A stretch of 38,299 nt of DNA from an uncultured Pelagibacteraceae bacterium (lineage in GTDB: Bacteria; Pseudomonadota; Alphaproteobacteria; Pelagibacterales; Pelagibacteraceae): the NCBI GenBank assembly GCA_902622795.1, contig CACNRD010000009.1, forward strand, positions 1 to 38,299, given 5' to 3'. Below, in pieces: positions 17,802-25,831 of this stretch. Positions within the stretch are counted from its first letter, which is position 1, and each line of letters starts with the position of its first letter. The position numbers and the translations under genes were made by a program. A model generated the notes under the pieces. It was given only the letters and a program-made list of their open reading frames with translations. It was not told the DNA's origin and did no database searches.

Positions 17802-18152
17802 TTAATAGCTTATATTTTTAAGAGTAGTCAAATATTCATTGAACTCTTTGATAAAAGAGTCACTTGGCTTAATATTTTTAATTCTTTGATCTGTTGAAGT
17901 TTTTTCCAATAAGAAGAATCCTTTTTCGCAAGCTTCATTAATGATTAAAGCCGATTTTGGCCTCGATGTTTTGAATAGTTTAGTTTTTAGTTGTTCAACA
18001 GATAATTTTTTATTTTCTTTGTAGGCAGACATTACTAATAACATCATATGATAATGAGAAGGTGATTTTCTAAAAAAATAGTTACTTGAGGTATGAGATT
18101 GTCTCATTTGATCTTCCCAGAAATTTAATAGAGTTTTTTTGTCTTTTGGCAT
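17802..18152 (-). CDS. Winged-helix (MarR-like) transcriptional regulator candidate
   Basis: This 116-residue basic protein has no membrane segment. Residues about 50-116 look like a winged helix: KKLSVEQLKTKLF (helix), TSRPKSALIINEACEKGFFL (recognition helix region), then the wing turn with TSTDQRIKNIKPSDSFIKEF, which resembles the MarR pattern 'D-x-R-x-x-x-x-x-T/S-x-x-G' and its following helix. The N-terminal part (MPKDKKTLLNFWEDQMRQSH) is probably a dimerisation helix. It follows tdm by 5 bases on the same strand, so it should be cotranscribed and may regulate the TMAO genes. SAR11-type genomes hold few regulators, which makes a local one notable. The family call is tentative because the protein is short and divergent. 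Confidence 0.6.
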   Translation of the reverse strand: MPKDKKTLLNFWEDQMRQSHTSSNYFFRKSPSHYHMMLLVMSAYKENKKLSVEQLKTKLFKTSRPKSALIINEACEKGFFLLEKTSTDQRIKNIKPSDSFIKEFNEYLTTLKNISY

Positions 18153-20609: not shown

Positions 20610-21563
20610 ATGAAAAAAATAATATCATTATTATCTGCTCTTATAATTTCTGTAGTTAGTTTTGCAGGAATTTCTAATGCTGCAGATAGCAAAAAACCCA
20701 TCGTAATCCCAACTCATAACTGGTCAAGCCAAATTGTGATGGCCTATGTTATTGGTGGAATTTTCGAAAGTATGGGTAACAATGTTAAATATGTAAATGC
20801 TGACTCACAAGCAGTTTATGAGTCAATTAGAATTGGTGATGTAACTATATCTCACGAAGTGTGGGAGTCTGCATTTGGTAAATCATTTACAACTGCTTTA
20901 GATAAAGGTGGTTTAATTGATATGGGTGATCATGAAGCAAGAACACTTGAAGATATGGGATACCCAAACTGGGTTACAGACAAAGGACTATGTCCTGGTT
21001 TACCAGACTGGACTGCTTTAAAAAATCCTGACTGTGCTAAAAACTTTACAACACCTGACTCTCCAAATGGAAAAGGAAGAATGTTGGAAGGTCCACAAAC
21101 TTGGCACGGTGACTTAATTCCACAAAGGGTTGATGCTTTAGGTTTAGGTGACCTTTGGTGGGTTAAATTTGCTGGAAGTGCAGATGCGCTTTGGGCTGAA
21201 TTAGCAGCTGCTGAAAAAGAAGGAAGAGGAACAATAATTTTCAATTGGACACCAAACTTTACAGATGGTGCTGGTTTTACATTTATTGACTTTCCTCCAT
21301 ACACTGCAGGTTGCAGACCAGAAGATGGTGGAGATGGAAAATGTGGTTCTCCAGATGGTTATCTGAAAAAAGCAGCACATGAGGATTTTCCAAAAACTCA
21401 TCCAAATGCAGCTAAAGTATTCAAAAAAATGTCATTTTCTACAAGTCAAATTGGAGCAATGGCAGCTTTAGTTGATTTAGATAAGATGACTCATGAAGAT
21501 GCAGCTAAAAAATGGTTAGCCGATAATAAGAAAGTGTGGGAAGAATTTACACACGATCATTAA
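20610..21563 (+). CDS. tmoX: Periplasmic TMAO / quaternary-amine binding protein (TmoX/ProX type)
   Basis: This 317-residue OpuAC-family solute-binding protein has a clear signal peptide, cleaved near SNA-AD (residues 24/25). The mature start IVIPTHNWSSQIVMAYVI and the segments SHEVWESAFG, GYPNWVTDKG, GPQTWHGDLI and IFNWTPNFTDG carry tryptophans 38, 85, 121, 165 and 213, suitable for an aromatic cage around a trimethylammonium group. TMAO is the favoured ligand because tdm is divergently adjacent and tmm lies downstream; glycine betaine or choline remain possible, and older Pelagibacter annotation calls this type ProX. Cys128, 142, 235 and 245 may form disulfides. The strong promoter and ribosome site, and a terminator after the gene, suggest it is made in excess over the membrane components. 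Confidence 0.85.
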   Translation: MKKIISLLSALIISVVSFAGISNAADSKKPIVIPTHNWSSQIVMAYVIGGIFESMGNNVKYVNADSQAVYESIRIGDVTISHEVWESAFGKSFTTALDKGGLIDMGDHEARTLEDMGYPNWVTDKGLCPGLPDWTALKNPDCAKNFTTPDSPNGKGRMLEGPQTWHGDLIPQRVDALGLGDLWWVKFAGSADALWAELAAAEKEGRGTIIFNWTPNFTDGAGFTFIDFPPYTAGCRPEDGGDGKCGSPDGYLKKAAHEDFPKTHPNAAKVFKKMSFSTSQIGAMAALVDLDKMTHEDAAKKWLADNKKVWEEFTHDH

Positions 21564-21586
21564 GGTTAAAAATATAAAACTTATAA

Positions 21587-21621
21587 ATCTCTCCCAACTT
21601 TGTTGGGGGGGATTTTTTTTT
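21587..21621 (+). terminator. Rho-independent terminator after tmoX
   Basis: A stem of 12 pairs (two of them G-U), with arms 21587-21598 and 21602-21613 and a TTT loop, is followed directly by a run of T. It lies 23 bases after the tmoX stop and before the MORN gene on the same strand, so it probably ends most tmoX transcripts and lets a minority continue into the permease genes. Confidence 0.92.
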
Positions 21622-21647
21622 ATTTAATTTTTGTATAAAATAAACAC

Positions 21648-22025
21648 ATGAAAAAATTTTTTTTATTTTTACTTTTAACTTTTTTTATCAGTTCATCAGT
21701 TTTTGCGCGAAGTACTGGATGTAAAGAGGGAAATTGTGAAAATGGATATGGAAAATGGGTCTATACAGATAAAACTACTTATGAAGGTGAGTGGGTTGAA
21801 ACAAAGAAACAAGGTCAGGGAGTAGAAACTTGGCCTAATGGATATATTTATAAAGGTGAATTTGAAAATAGCGTATGGAGTGGGCAAGGACTTTTAACAT
21901 TCCCAGATGGTTCTACTTACGATGGCGAATGGGCCAACGGCTTTATGAATGGTCAAGGAACATTTACTTGGGCGGATGGAAAACAAAAATCAGGAATTTG
22001 GAAAAACGGAAAATTACAGGAATAA
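21648..22025 (+). CDS. Secreted MORN-repeat protein
   Basis: This 125-residue protein has a signal peptide (cleavage near VFA-RS, residue 20) and three MORN repeats with exact 23-residue spacing, beginning at Tyr45 (YEGEWVETKKQGQGVETWPNG, shortened here to its ends Y-EGEW and WPNG), Tyr68 (YKGEF...TFPDG) and Tyr91 (YDGEW...TWADG), plus a degenerate fourth turn. Two cysteines lie just before the repeats (Cys25, Cys30). MORN repeats form beta-hairpin rods and often serve protein or membrane contacts; no catalytic residues are visible. It lies between tmoX and tmoW, after the terminator, and its stop overlaps the next start (TAATG). A role in the transporter is suggested only by position. Confidence 0.88.
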   Translation: MKKFFLFLLLTFFISSSVFARSTGCKEGNCENGYGKWVYTDKTTYEGEWVETKKQGQGVETWPNGYIYKGEFENSVWSGQGLLTFPDGSTYDGEWANGFMNGQGTFTWADGKQKSGIWKNGKLQE

Positions 22026-22576
22026 TGTCTCAAGAAAATTATTTTACTAAATTAAAGGAATTACCAGAATCAGTTAGACAGTTTGTTGGATTAATAATAA
22101 TTACTTTAATCATTATTTTGTCATTTGTTATTTTAAATAACATTTTTGGAGAAGGTGATGATTTAGTTAAAAGAATGAAAATAGAAGAAGATAGAATTGC
22201 AGAAGAGAGAAAATTAAATGAATTAATATCAAGTCTGCCATCTGGAATTTTAGTTACTTTTGATGGAACTGATCATCATAGATTATCCGACGAGGTTTAC
22301 GAGAAAGTCTGCAAAGCTACAAAACTTATTCCTCAAAGAGCAATAATGGGGGCTAATTTTCTTAATTTTAGAGCTCATGAAATTTATACGATTAATGGAA
22401 ACAAAATTGATGAGACATTTGTTGAGTGGGATGAAGAAAAAAACAAATGTTTTGCAGGTTTTACAGTAAGTGGAAATAATGTTGGGGTTGATGAAAAAAT
22501 TAAAGTAAGTGGGGAGGCGTTAAGTTTTTTAAGTACCGGCATTGATACTAGAATTTATTATATCAAAAATTTTTAA
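22025..22576 (+). CDS. Single-pass membrane protein coupled to the MORN gene
   Basis: This 183-residue protein begins MSQENYFTKLKELPESVRQF and has one hydrophobic helix at about residues 20-42 (FVGLIIITLIIILSFVIL). A charged, probably coiled-coil stretch follows (VKRMKIEEDRIAEERKLNEL, about 48-67), then a soluble domain of about 110 residues with two cysteines. The ATG shares a base with the MORN stop (TAATG), and this start fits better than an out-of-phase extension through the MORN gene. Topology predicts the C-terminal domain in the periplasm, the same side as the secreted MORN protein, so the two may interact. I recognise no family for the C-terminal domain. Confidence 0.8.
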   Translation: MSQENYFTKLKELPESVRQFVGLIIITLIIILSFVILNNIFGEGDDLVKRMKIEEDRIAEERKLNELISSLPSGILVTFDGTDHHRLSDEVYEKVCKATKLIPQRAIMGANFLNFRAHEIYTINGNKIDETFVEWDEEKNKCFAGFTVSGNNVGVDEKIKVSGEALSFLSTGIDTRIYYIKNF

Positions 22577-22642
22577 TTAAGGAGAAACAAGTATTATATA
22601 GATATTAATTCAATTAAATTTCGTATAACTTGATAATAATTT
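22577..22642 (+). promoter_or_regulatory. Leader between membrane-protein gene and tmoW with a displaced SD-like motif
   Basis: This 66-base gap lies inside the transporter operon. AAGGAG lies only a few bases after the upstream stop, about 55 bases from the tmoW ATG, with no ATG-started frame behind it. No Shine-Dalgarno is visible close to tmoW itself, and an in-frame stop lies just before its ATG, so the tmoW start cannot be moved upstream. I cannot assign a function. Confidence 0.25.
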
Positions 22643-23674
22643 ATGTCTGACGCAGTTATTAAATGTGAGTCTGTTTATAAAATTTTTGGCGAAAATGCTG
22701 AAAAAATGCTTCAAGAAGCAAATGGAAATGTAGATGCAAAAACTTTTCAAGAAAATGGATGTATAGTCGGAGTTAACAATGCTTCTTTTGAAGTAGCAAA
22801 AGGAGAAATGTTGGTTGTGATGGGTTTATCTGGCTCAGGTAAATCAACATTACTTAGATGTATTTCAAGATTAACAGATGCAACAGGTGGAAAAATTTTT
22901 ATAGAGGGTCAAGATTTATTAGAGTTAAACAACAAAGAATTAATTGATCTTAGAAGAAATAAAATGGGAATGGTTTTTCAGAGCTTTGCACTGTTACCAC
23001 ACAAAACTGTTGTAGAAAATATAGCATTTCCACTTCAGATTAAGGGAATTAATACTGACGATAGCATTAGTAAGGCAATGGATATGGTTAAGTTAGTTGG
23101 ACTAGATGGTAGAGAAAACTATTTTCCAAGAGAACTCTCAGGTGGACAACAGCAAAGAGTAGGTATTGCAAGATCCTTAGCTGTTGAACCGGATATTTGG
23201 TTTTTAGATGAGCCTTTTTCAGCATTAGATCCTTTGATACGAAAAGAAATGCAGGATGAATTTTTAAGACTTCAAGATAAATTGCAAAAAACTATAATGT
23301 TCATAACTCATGATTTTGACGAAGCTTTAAAGCTAGCTGATCGAATAGCAATTATGAAAGATGGTATCATTGAACAATTAGATACACCCGCTAAAATAGT
23401 TTTAAATCCTGCAACTGAATATGTGAGGAAATTTACAGAAGAAGTTCCAAGGGAAAAAGTTTTGTTAATTGAAGATGTAATGGATCAATCTGCGAGTGAC
23501 AATTTAGGTGACTTAAGAGTTTCAAAAGATGAGATTATTGAAAATGTTGCTGAAAAAATTTTAACTCAAGAAAAAACTGTGGGAGTTATAGATGGGAATA
23601 ATAAAATTATAGGCACTATTAATCCTACAAAGATAATTAATACAGTTTTTGGTGGAAGGAAAAATGGAAATTAA
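22643..23674 (+). CDS. tmoW: ABC transporter ATPase, ProV/TmoW type
   Basis: This 343-residue ATPase energises the adjacent permease. It shows Walker A GLSGSGKST (61-69), the Q-loop in GMVFQSFALLPHKTV, signature LSGGQQQRVGIARSLA, Walker B IWFLDEPFSALDP and the H-loop ITHDFDEALKLADRIA. An N-terminal extension of about 40 residues (VYKIFGENAEKMLQEANG) is typical of the ProV/OpuAA subgroup for betaine-like osmolytes. The C-terminal 70 residues resemble a reduced CBS-like regulatory region (TVGVIDGNNKIIGTINPTKI), shorter than in E. coli ProV. It is 3 bases from the permease gene. Substrate assignment to TMAO comes from the tdm/tmm context. Confidence 0.9.
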   Translation: MSDAVIKCESVYKIFGENAEKMLQEANGNVDAKTFQENGCIVGVNNASFEVAKGEMLVVMGLSGSGKSTLLRCISRLTDATGGKIFIEGQDLLELNNKELIDLRRNKMGMVFQSFALLPHKTVVENIAFPLQIKGINTDDSISKAMDMVKLVGLDGRENYFPRELSGGQQQRVGIARSLAVEPDIWFLDEPFSALDPLIRKEMQDEFLRLQDKLQKTIMFITHDFDEALKLADRIAIMKDGIIEQLDTPAKIVLNPATEYVRKFTEEVPREKVLLIEDVMDQSASDNLGDLRVSKDEIIENVAEKILTQEKTVGVIDGNNKIIGTINPTKIINTVFGGRKNGN

Positions 23675-23677
23675 ATT

Positions 23678-25831
23678 ATGGAATTTCTAAAAAAAAATCC
23701 AAAAATATTTCAGTGGTTATTTTTATTAATTGTTTTTTTTGCATTATGTTTTGCAATCGAAGTTCCTGAAACATATAAGTTTATAAGAGGTCAGGCAGAG
23801 TTTATTAAAGACCCTAACCAAAGTACCTTTGTTTTTGCAGGTAAAGAGGTGAGGTATTATGCTTTTGATGTCTTTTGGAGATTACCCCCATTACTTGGAT
23901 GGTTACCTATATGGATAAATGACTCATTATTTTTTCTAATGAATGACTGGATGCCGATGGAGTTTTGGAATGAGGATACACAAGAATTTAAAACAAGACC
24001 ACTTCTCCTGCAAATAAGTAGAAATTTAACTGCATTTATGACCTTTATAATTGAGTTAATTAGAGAGATTTTATTAGGTGGATTAGAAACTATTGTTGCA
24101 TTTACAAGTTGGGATTTTATTGATGCTAATCCATGGGCAGAATTACCAGGTTTACCATGGACTATTGTTGCTGCTGGAGCAACAATATTATCTTATAAAT
24201 TGAGCGGTAAAGGTTTAGCCATTTTTGCTGGATTAACAATGGTTTACATTTCTATTTTTGGTCAGTGGAAACCATCTATGCAAACTTTATCGTTTATTTT
24301 AGTTGCCGCGCCATTATCTTTTATATTTGGACTAGGTCTGGGTATATCTGCATTTAAAAGTAAACGAGTGGAAAAAGCTCTTTATCCAATTCTCTTAGTT
24401 ATGCAAACCATGCCACAATATGCAGTTCTTGTTCCTGCGCTAGTTTTATTTGGAGTAGGTGATCATGCGGCAGTAATTATAACCATGATAGTTGCCATTC
24501 CACCAATGATATTATTAACTTTATTAGGATTAAGAGCCATACCACCTGAAGTAATTGAAGCTGGCAAAATGAGTGGATGTAACAATTGGCAATTAATGTT
24601 CAAAGTATTAATTCCTACGGCTAGAAGAGATATACTAATCGGAGTTAATCAGGTGATAATGGTTTGTTTTTCAATGGCGGTTATCTCAGCATTTATTGGA
24701 GCAAAAGGTTTAGGTTTTAATTTATTATTAGCTCTTAATCAGCTTAATATTGGATTAGCTTTAGAAGCAGGTTTGTGTATTAGTCTTATCGCAATATTAT
24801 TAGATAAAATGTCCTTAGCCTGGGCAAATAAACAAAATGACTATTTTGGTAATCTTACATTTTTCGAAAGGAATAAAAATGCTATATTTTTTGCAGGAGC
24901 GTTTGTTGTAGGAATTATACTTGCATATATTGGAACTTTTTTGTTCAAAGGAACATTCAATTATTTATTTGAAATTCCACACAACAAAGGAATATCAACT
25001 GCAGATTTTTGGAACAAAGGAGTTGATTGGATCTTTGATACATTCTTCGTATATATAAAAGCATTTAACACATGGTTAATTCAAGAGGTATTACAGCCAA
25101 TGCGAGCGCTTTATTTGAGAATGCCTGCTGTTGCTACAATCGTTTTAGTAGTTGGGGCTGGTTACTTAATTGGTGGAATTAGATCAGCATTAGTAGTATG
25201 TGGATTAACTTTATTTATAGCTCTTAGTCCATGGTGGGACAGAGCGTTGGTTACAACATACATGGCTACTTTTGGAGTTGTAATTTCGTGTTTAATTGGT
25301 TTTACAGTTGGAACCTTGTGTTTTCAAAGCAAAAGTGCAGCAAAATTTATGTTAGGAGTATGTGATATATTTCAAACCTTTCCATCTTTTGTATATTTAA
25401 TTCCGGTAATGATGTTATTTGGAATAACAGACACATCAGTTTTAATTGCTGTGATTGTTTACGCAACAATTCCTGCAACTAGATATACAATTGAAGGCCT
25501 TAGAAGTGTTCCAGTAGGCTTACATGAAGCTGCAACGATGTCTGGTGTAAATAAGTTTCAACGATTAACAAAAATTGAATTCCCATTAGCTTTTCCTCAC
25601 ATGATGCTTGGTTTAAATCAAACAATAGTTTTTGCTCTATTCATGGTAATTATTGGAGCCTTCATTGGGACAGAAGATCTAGGTCAATATATTTTAAAAG
25701 CTTTATCTGATAAAAATGGTGCAGGTATAGGTCTGACATTAGGTATTTGTGTAGCATTTATAGGGTTAATTTTTGATAATTTGATAAGAACTTGGGTTAG
25801 TAAGAGAAAGAAACATTTAGGAATAGCCTAA
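23678..25831 (+). CDS. tmoV: Double-module ABC permease, ProW/TmoV type
   Basis: This 717-residue protein contains two complete permease modules fused in tandem. Each has the EAA cytoplasmic loop that contacts the ATPase: GLRAIPPEVIEAGKMSG (about 284-300) and GLRSVPVGLHEAATMSG (about 607-623). Each is followed by a matching helix pattern (GVNQVIMVCFSMAVISAFIG versus GLNQTIVFALFMVIIGAFIG). ProW of E. coli has one module and works as a dimer; here the two halves are one polypeptide, as in TmoV-type TMAO transporters. The halves have diverged clearly. The first has a long N-terminal region with extra helices and a periplasmic loop (about 30-160). It lies between the ATPase gene and a GpsA homologue. 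Confidence 0.9.
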   Translation: MEFLKKNPKIFQWLFLLIVFFALCFAIEVPETYKFIRGQAEFIKDPNQSTFVFAGKEVRYYAFDVFWRLPPLLGWLPIWINDSLFFLMNDWMPMEFWNEDTQEFKTRPLLLQISRNLTAFMTFIIELIREILLGGLETIVAFTSWDFIDANPWAELPGLPWTIVAAGATILSYKLSGKGLAIFAGLTMVYISIFGQWKPSMQTLSFILVAAPLSFIFGLGLGISAFKSKRVEKALYPILLVMQTMPQYAVLVPALVLFGVGDHAAVIITMIVAIPPMILLTLLGLRAIPPEVIEAGKMSGCNNWQLMFKVLIPTARRDILIGVNQVIMVCFSMAVISAFIGAKGLGFNLLLALNQLNIGLALEAGLCISLIAILLDKMSLAWANKQNDYFGNLTFFERNKNAIFFAGAFVVGIILAYIGTFLFKGTFNYLFEIPHNKGISTADFWNKGVDWIFDTFFVYIKAFNTWLIQEVLQPMRALYLRMPAVATIVLVVGAGYLIGGIRSALVVCGLTLFIALSPWWDRALVTTYMATFGVVISCLIGFTVGTLCFQSKSAAKFMLGVCDIFQTFPSFVYLIPVMMLFGITDTSVLIAVIVYATIPATRYTIEGLRSVPVGLHEAATMSGVNKFQRLTKIEFPLAFPHMMLGLNQTIVFALFMVIIGAFIGTEDLGQYILKALSDKNGAGIGLTLGICVAFIGLIFDNLIRTWVSKRKKHLGIA

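Follow-up and report, generated by a model that had tools for sequence, protein, structure and literature searches.

The tmo cluster of an uncultured Pelagibacteraceae bacterium raises the question of what two small genes are doing between the binding-protein gene and the ATPase gene of an importer by which abundant ocean bacteria acquire trimethylamine N-oxide (TMAO). In the 38,299-nucleotide stretch of contig CACNRD010000009.1 analyzed here (the window), tmoX (20610-21563, + strand) encodes a 317-residue periplasmic TMAO-binding protein of the OpuAC type (PF04069, 8.3e-36), kin to the solved TmoX (4xz6; phmmer, 2.5e-85). It is accompanied by adjoining genes of the ProV/ProW type: tmoV (22643-23674, +), whose ATPase product scored above the TIGR01186 cut-off (4.6e-101), and tmoW (23678-25831, +), encoding a 717-residue permease with two PF00528 (BPD_transp_1) stretches, for which none of 17 NCBIfam matches passed its cut-off, the best being TIGR03416, below its own. 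These binding protein, ATPase and permease families are those of the TmoXWV importer of R. pomeroyi DSS-3 and Pelagibacter HTCC1062. Upstream of tmoX, on the opposite strand, are genes for a DUF1989/GcvT protein, presumably Tdm, a 116-residue ORF and an FAD oxidoreductase. Downstream of tmoW lie a glycerol-3-phosphate-dehydrogenase-like gene and, on the opposite strand, a flavin monooxygenase gene that we take to be tmm, both Tdm and Tmm being tentative names given from domain content. The 116-residue ORF beside tdm (17802-18152, −) had a match in 77 of the 100 family loci that we fetched; a Pfam search with it returned nothing at 0.001, and its identification as marR would be a guess.

The gap between the end of tmoX and the start of tmoV, exactly 21564-22642, holds the two genes recognized by the initial annotation, one encoding a secreted MORN protein of 125 residues (21648-22025, +) and the other a one-helix protein of 183 residues, HEL (22025-22576, +). 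The reported TAATG coupling was also confirmed, the stop and start codons overlapping by one base. Spacing between the two genes ranged from −23 to +11 bases across 85 loci measured and was −1, as in the window, in 35. All five genes are on the + strand in the order X-MORN-HEL-V-W, contrary to the X-W-V order that had been expected of such transporters; X-V-W was also the order in 14 of 20 loci fetched from outside the order Pelagibacterales.

The MORN protein has a hydrophobic N-terminus ending, as read by eye, in the cleavage site VFA|RST. PF02493 matched it at 1.2e-23 over three stretches, and three genomic stretches passed the curated cut-off of this family. By eye, residues 33-124 form four 23-residue units; the repeats had been described as exact, which is true of their period but not of their letters, which differ between units. 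Near the mature N-terminus is a CxxxxC motif with both cysteines present in 88 of 88 aligned orthologues (short fragments dropped). The predicted model (pLDDT 86.5) had a MORN1 structure as its top Foldseek match and also matched eukaryotic MORN structures in the PDB, some of them complexed with partner proteins or peptides, suggesting that the protein adopts the beta-hairpin ladder fold of the MORN repeat family. Median dN/dS values of 0.094 for MORN and 0.153 for HEL indicate purifying selection on both genes, with 0.081, 0.060 and 0.059 for tmoX, tmoV and tmoW as comparison (150 pairs for each gene at dS 0.1-1.5, with MORN and tmoX taken without their first 25 codons).

HEL consists of an N-terminal helix, a charged stalk and a soluble domain with two invariant cysteines (both found in every one of the 86 sequences aligned after short fragments were removed), and ends in IDTRxYxIKN, the fixed letters of which were invariant in 42 diverse sequences. 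No Pfam or NCBIfam family matched it above the curated cut-off, its predicted model, built from a shallow alignment, reached a pLDDT of 57.6, and no relatives were found in viral contigs. The description of HEL as a single-pass protein with a periplasmic soluble domain is supported by its one strong hydrophobic segment, preceded by about 20 residues, and by the net charge of the flanks, which favors an N-in/C-out orientation in 75 of 86 orthologues. However, flanks counted by lysine and arginine alone were equal in 63 of the 86, so this topology is likely but not certain. DsbB is encoded in the window's genome.

A survey of the family revealed that the pair accompanies one type of TMAO transporter nearly without exception. 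TmoX matched in 97 of 297 family genomes, 92 of the window type and five at 46-47% identity, and HEL matched in 90; strong MORN matches, by our cut of E below 1e-34, were likewise found in 90 genomes among the matches listed. Weaker MORN matches, many in longer frames, were counted as other MORN proteins, and one genome (G058) encodes a near-full-length MORN relative at 42% identity, with neither HEL nor TmoX found there. Both MORN and HEL were present in 88 of the 92 genomes with window-type TmoX. In three of the four exceptions (G104, G042 and G112) the contig stops within or immediately past tmoX or MORN, and the fourth (G284) has an orphan tmoX (L122, 6714-7652, −; 82% identical), with tmoV, tmoW, MORN and HEL unmatched in the 14 kb fetched. 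In another genome (G264) the contig starts inside the tmo cluster. HEL matches inside long frames (G120, G725 and the second match of G001) were weak, including the HEL match of G120, and were taken as chance.

Among the 100 fetched loci, which were chosen for holding a match, 84 read X-MORN-HEL-V-W, and the other 16 were seven loci truncated at contig ends, five diverged cassettes, a split cluster counted as two halves, a single orphan tmoX and a chance match. The diverged tmoX-tmoV-tmoW cassettes, those with TmoX at 46-47% identity, lacked the pair in all five cases (L128-L132; G186, G274, G224, G131 and G226); four of them occupy the same locus as the usual cassette, as judged by the flanking tdm and dmg genes, and the contig of the fifth was too short. 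The position of the pair between tmoX and the ATPase gene is thus nearly invariant rather than sporadic, and every clear HEL match in the loci examined was accompanied by tmo genes, so that the pair is not equally common in unrelated loci. The suggestion that the two proteins form a general scaffold in the envelope is disfavored because 53 of the 127 good genomes have no HEL.

Beyond the family, HEL was found in 63 of 147 genomes drawn from the order, a draw with many genomes in common with the family survey. Five of the 63 were from another family (four clear matches and one near chance), the number drawn from that family not being shown. All four clear cases read X-MORN-HEL-V-W, two adjoining tdm and two adjoining tmm. 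At the level of the class, HEL was found in two of 385 genomes, that of the window and another from the same genus, and TmoX relatives at E 1e-50 or better in 24. Neither MORN nor HEL was detected in 20 outside tmoX loci (of 22 beyond the order; tblastn, E 1e-3), 17 of which carry X with V and W. Since these 17 loci and the five diverged cassettes do without the pair, it is not needed for the TmoXVW transporter family as such. Among the best 80 of 521 confirmed HEL contig loci (all at least 81% identity), tmoV was present in 80 and MORN in 79; one of the 80 reads HEL-tmoV-tmoW without MORN and tmoX, beside a turned-round tdm, and may be misassembled. In sum, the pair is strictly associated genetically with one transporter type, with one sampled locus lacking MORN.

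To which part of the cluster does the pair belong? An intrinsic terminator with a 14-pair stem and a T run lies 3' of tmoX (21585-21615, +). A terminator-like hairpin was found at this place in 86 of 87 loci versus 1 of 435 control stretches inside tmoX, and the diverged cassette L128 has one after tmoX as well; between HEL and tmoV no terminator-like site was found in any of the 87 loci. The terminator after tmoX therefore groups the pair with tmoV-tmoW. The earlier placement of the pair inside the transporter operon holds for its position between tmoX and tmoV, but the strong terminator parts tmoX from it. A split cluster in one genome (G154; L120 and L121) has the same division: tmoX lies by tdm with a hairpin behind it by eye, and MORN-HEL-tmoV-tmoW lies on another contig behind a 372-residue ORF, a block relocation seen in this one genome and possibly a misassembly. 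Pearson correlations of protein distances over 62 loci, calculated without a significance test, were highest with tmoW (0.96 for MORN and 0.97 for HEL), followed by tmoV (0.92 and 0.91), tmoX (0.79 and 0.85) and tdm (0.33 and 0.42). The corresponding Spearman values lay closer together (tmoW, 0.77 and 0.78; tmoX, 0.70 and 0.73; tdm, 0.38 and 0.53). The pair goes with a single transporter type and, within it, more closely with the membrane part than with tmoX.

The permease itself carries a matching feature. We aligned TmoW from 23 diverse pair-bearing loci and 18 pair-lacking loci, the latter comprising 15 of the 18 tmoW-matching loci from outside the order (the remaining three, L244, L254 and L261, yielded no frame or one not within the length limits) and three of the five diverged cassettes. 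Residues 33-63, after the first helix (23774-23866, +), are the one group-specific insertion of at least four residues in TmoW, and none of that size was found in the TmoX or TmoV alignments. The insertion was present in 23 of 23 pair-bearing proteins, at 31 residues in 20 and 21 residues in three; of the pair-lacking proteins, 15 had none and the three from diverged cassettes had five aligned residues. In four close relatives from outside the order (L245 to L248) the flanking WRLP motif is kept and the insertion is absent. Lysines before the first helix suggest that the insertion faces the periplasm. The pair and the insertion may each be of single origin, in which case their agreement would amount to a single event, possibly a chance outcome of shared ancestry, instead of many.

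A third secreted gene, P3 (about 153 residues), which like the tmoX terminator had gone unmentioned in the initial annotation, lies between that terminator and MORN in 36 of 87 loci (e.g. L093, 7808-8263, −; L043, 7339-7800, −), with two cysteines invariant in 36 of 36 and no terminator-like site between P3 and MORN in these 36 loci. The genome of the window (84% complete) gave no match to P3. P3 occurred in four of the best 80 of the 521 HEL contig loci, and a clear relative was present elsewhere in 16 of 177 genomes; of the 12 such loci fetched, the three whose neighbors were scanned gave a metallo-beta-lactamase-fold gene, an NAD-kinase-like gene and a PfkB gene. This patchy occurrence, together with the relatives in unrelated loci, rules P3 out as part of a strict MORN-HEL module. 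HEL and P3 showed no kinship, as hhalign gave a probability of about 1% (E 0.057) across 27 hydrophobic columns, and the search for solved relatives of either protein by sequence gave matches at E 0.35 or worse only.

We propose that MORN and HEL are probably accessory subunits of the Pelagibacterales-type TMAO ABC importer that work with its membrane part, TmoV/TmoW, a reading drawn from sequence comparison. Co-inheritance, the one block relocation and the matching TmoW insertion support the earlier idea of a periplasmic accessory of the transporter, although the contact itself is inferred. Other ABC importers have a small extra subunit encoded alongside, such as MetNIQ with SliC and MlaFEDB with MlaD, a likeness of arrangement, with no kinship of sequence claimed. 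In the mechanism that we consider simplest, HEL would be anchored in the inner membrane by its N-terminal helix and its stalk would hold up a periplasmic domain secured by a disulfide. The MORN ladder, a soluble protein, could then grip in its groove a segment of HEL (e.g. the conserved tail) or of the TmoW insertion, as modeled on peptide binding by eukaryotic MORN proteins. Jointly the two proteins would give TmoW a platform at its outer face, assisting the docking or holding of the very abundant TmoX and allowing more uptake at low substrate. That the MORN ladder and its membrane-anchored partner constitute an undescribed permease docking platform, bound to a dedicated TmoW insertion, by which an oligotroph keeps its abundant binding protein close to the pore, is a more tentative proposal, which we regard as possible but rather doubtful.

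The pair could instead be hitch-hikers, envelope proteins of unrelated role that were fixed by chance between tmoX and tmoV and inherited by linkage. The observed link to the transporter is genetic and not directly functional, other MORN proteins are encoded in many family genomes (the weaker matches), and P3, which some genomes carry at this position, has paralogues that lie in unrelated surroundings. Nevertheless, we consider this explanation unlikely, given that the pair is missing where the cassette is absent or diverged, that HEL is missing from 53 of the 127 good genomes, and that the pair stayed with tmoV-tmoW in the relocated block and is matched by an insertion in TmoW. Less probable still is a sensory or regulatory role, in which the periplasmic domains would sense TMAO or the extent to which TmoX is occupied, and adjust the transporter's activity instead of docking TmoX; the probably membrane-anchored domain, the invariant C-terminal motif and cysteine pair and the fixed place beside the ATPase gene are consistent with such a role, but about 20 residues alone precede the HEL helix and no known signaling domain was found in Pfam or NCBIfam. 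Finally, a dedicated chaperone pair for assembly or quality control of TmoW or TmoX would fit the block inheritance with tmoV-tmoW and the cysteine pairs in periplasmic proteins, and nothing specific argues against it, although the TmoW insertion would suggest a stable contact; we rate it the most improbable of these readings.

Comparison with published work suggested that the pair may have been present in earlier experiments. In the parts of the HTCC1062 transporter paper available (PMC8918994), X, W and V are described and neither the pair nor the TmoW insertion is mentioned; the words MORN, operon and hypothetical are absent from its text. These parts report TMAO binding and uptake for this relative and restored growth of a R. 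pomeroyi tmoW mutant on 2 mM TMAO by the HTCC1062 cluster, amplified with one flanking primer pair. Because a single flanking pair was used and the survey genome that we take as HTCC1062 (G026) has MORN, HEL and P3, the complementing cluster probably carried the MORN and HEL genes unnoticed. In the accessible portions of two other papers, SAR11_1302 is mentioned as a glycine betaine transporter gene (PMC3160333, PMC5069961), and no mention of locus tags SAR11_1299 to 1301 was found in the literature searched. MORN repeats are described as protein-protein interaction modules in the part of PMC7725318 available. In the portions of the Pelagibacter/SAR11 literature covered, they appeared in PMC9238414 only, on repeat proteins in viral long reads, and a search for MORN repeats with periplasm and ABC transporter, mostly outside subscription papers, returned only a Leptospira paper.

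The window's MORN protein shares its repeat family and predicted fold with MORN1, MORN4-Myo3a (6jle) and junctophilin-2 with a CaV1.1 peptide (7rxq) but, unlike these eukaryotic proteins, is a secreted protein with four repeats and a CxxxxC motif whose gene lies in an ABC importer cluster. If MORN and HEL belong to the TMAO importer, its published description is incomplete, and the TmoW insertion offers a concrete candidate for their contact with the permease. Should the docking platform prove true, MORN repeats would form the basis of a subunit of a bacterial transporter.
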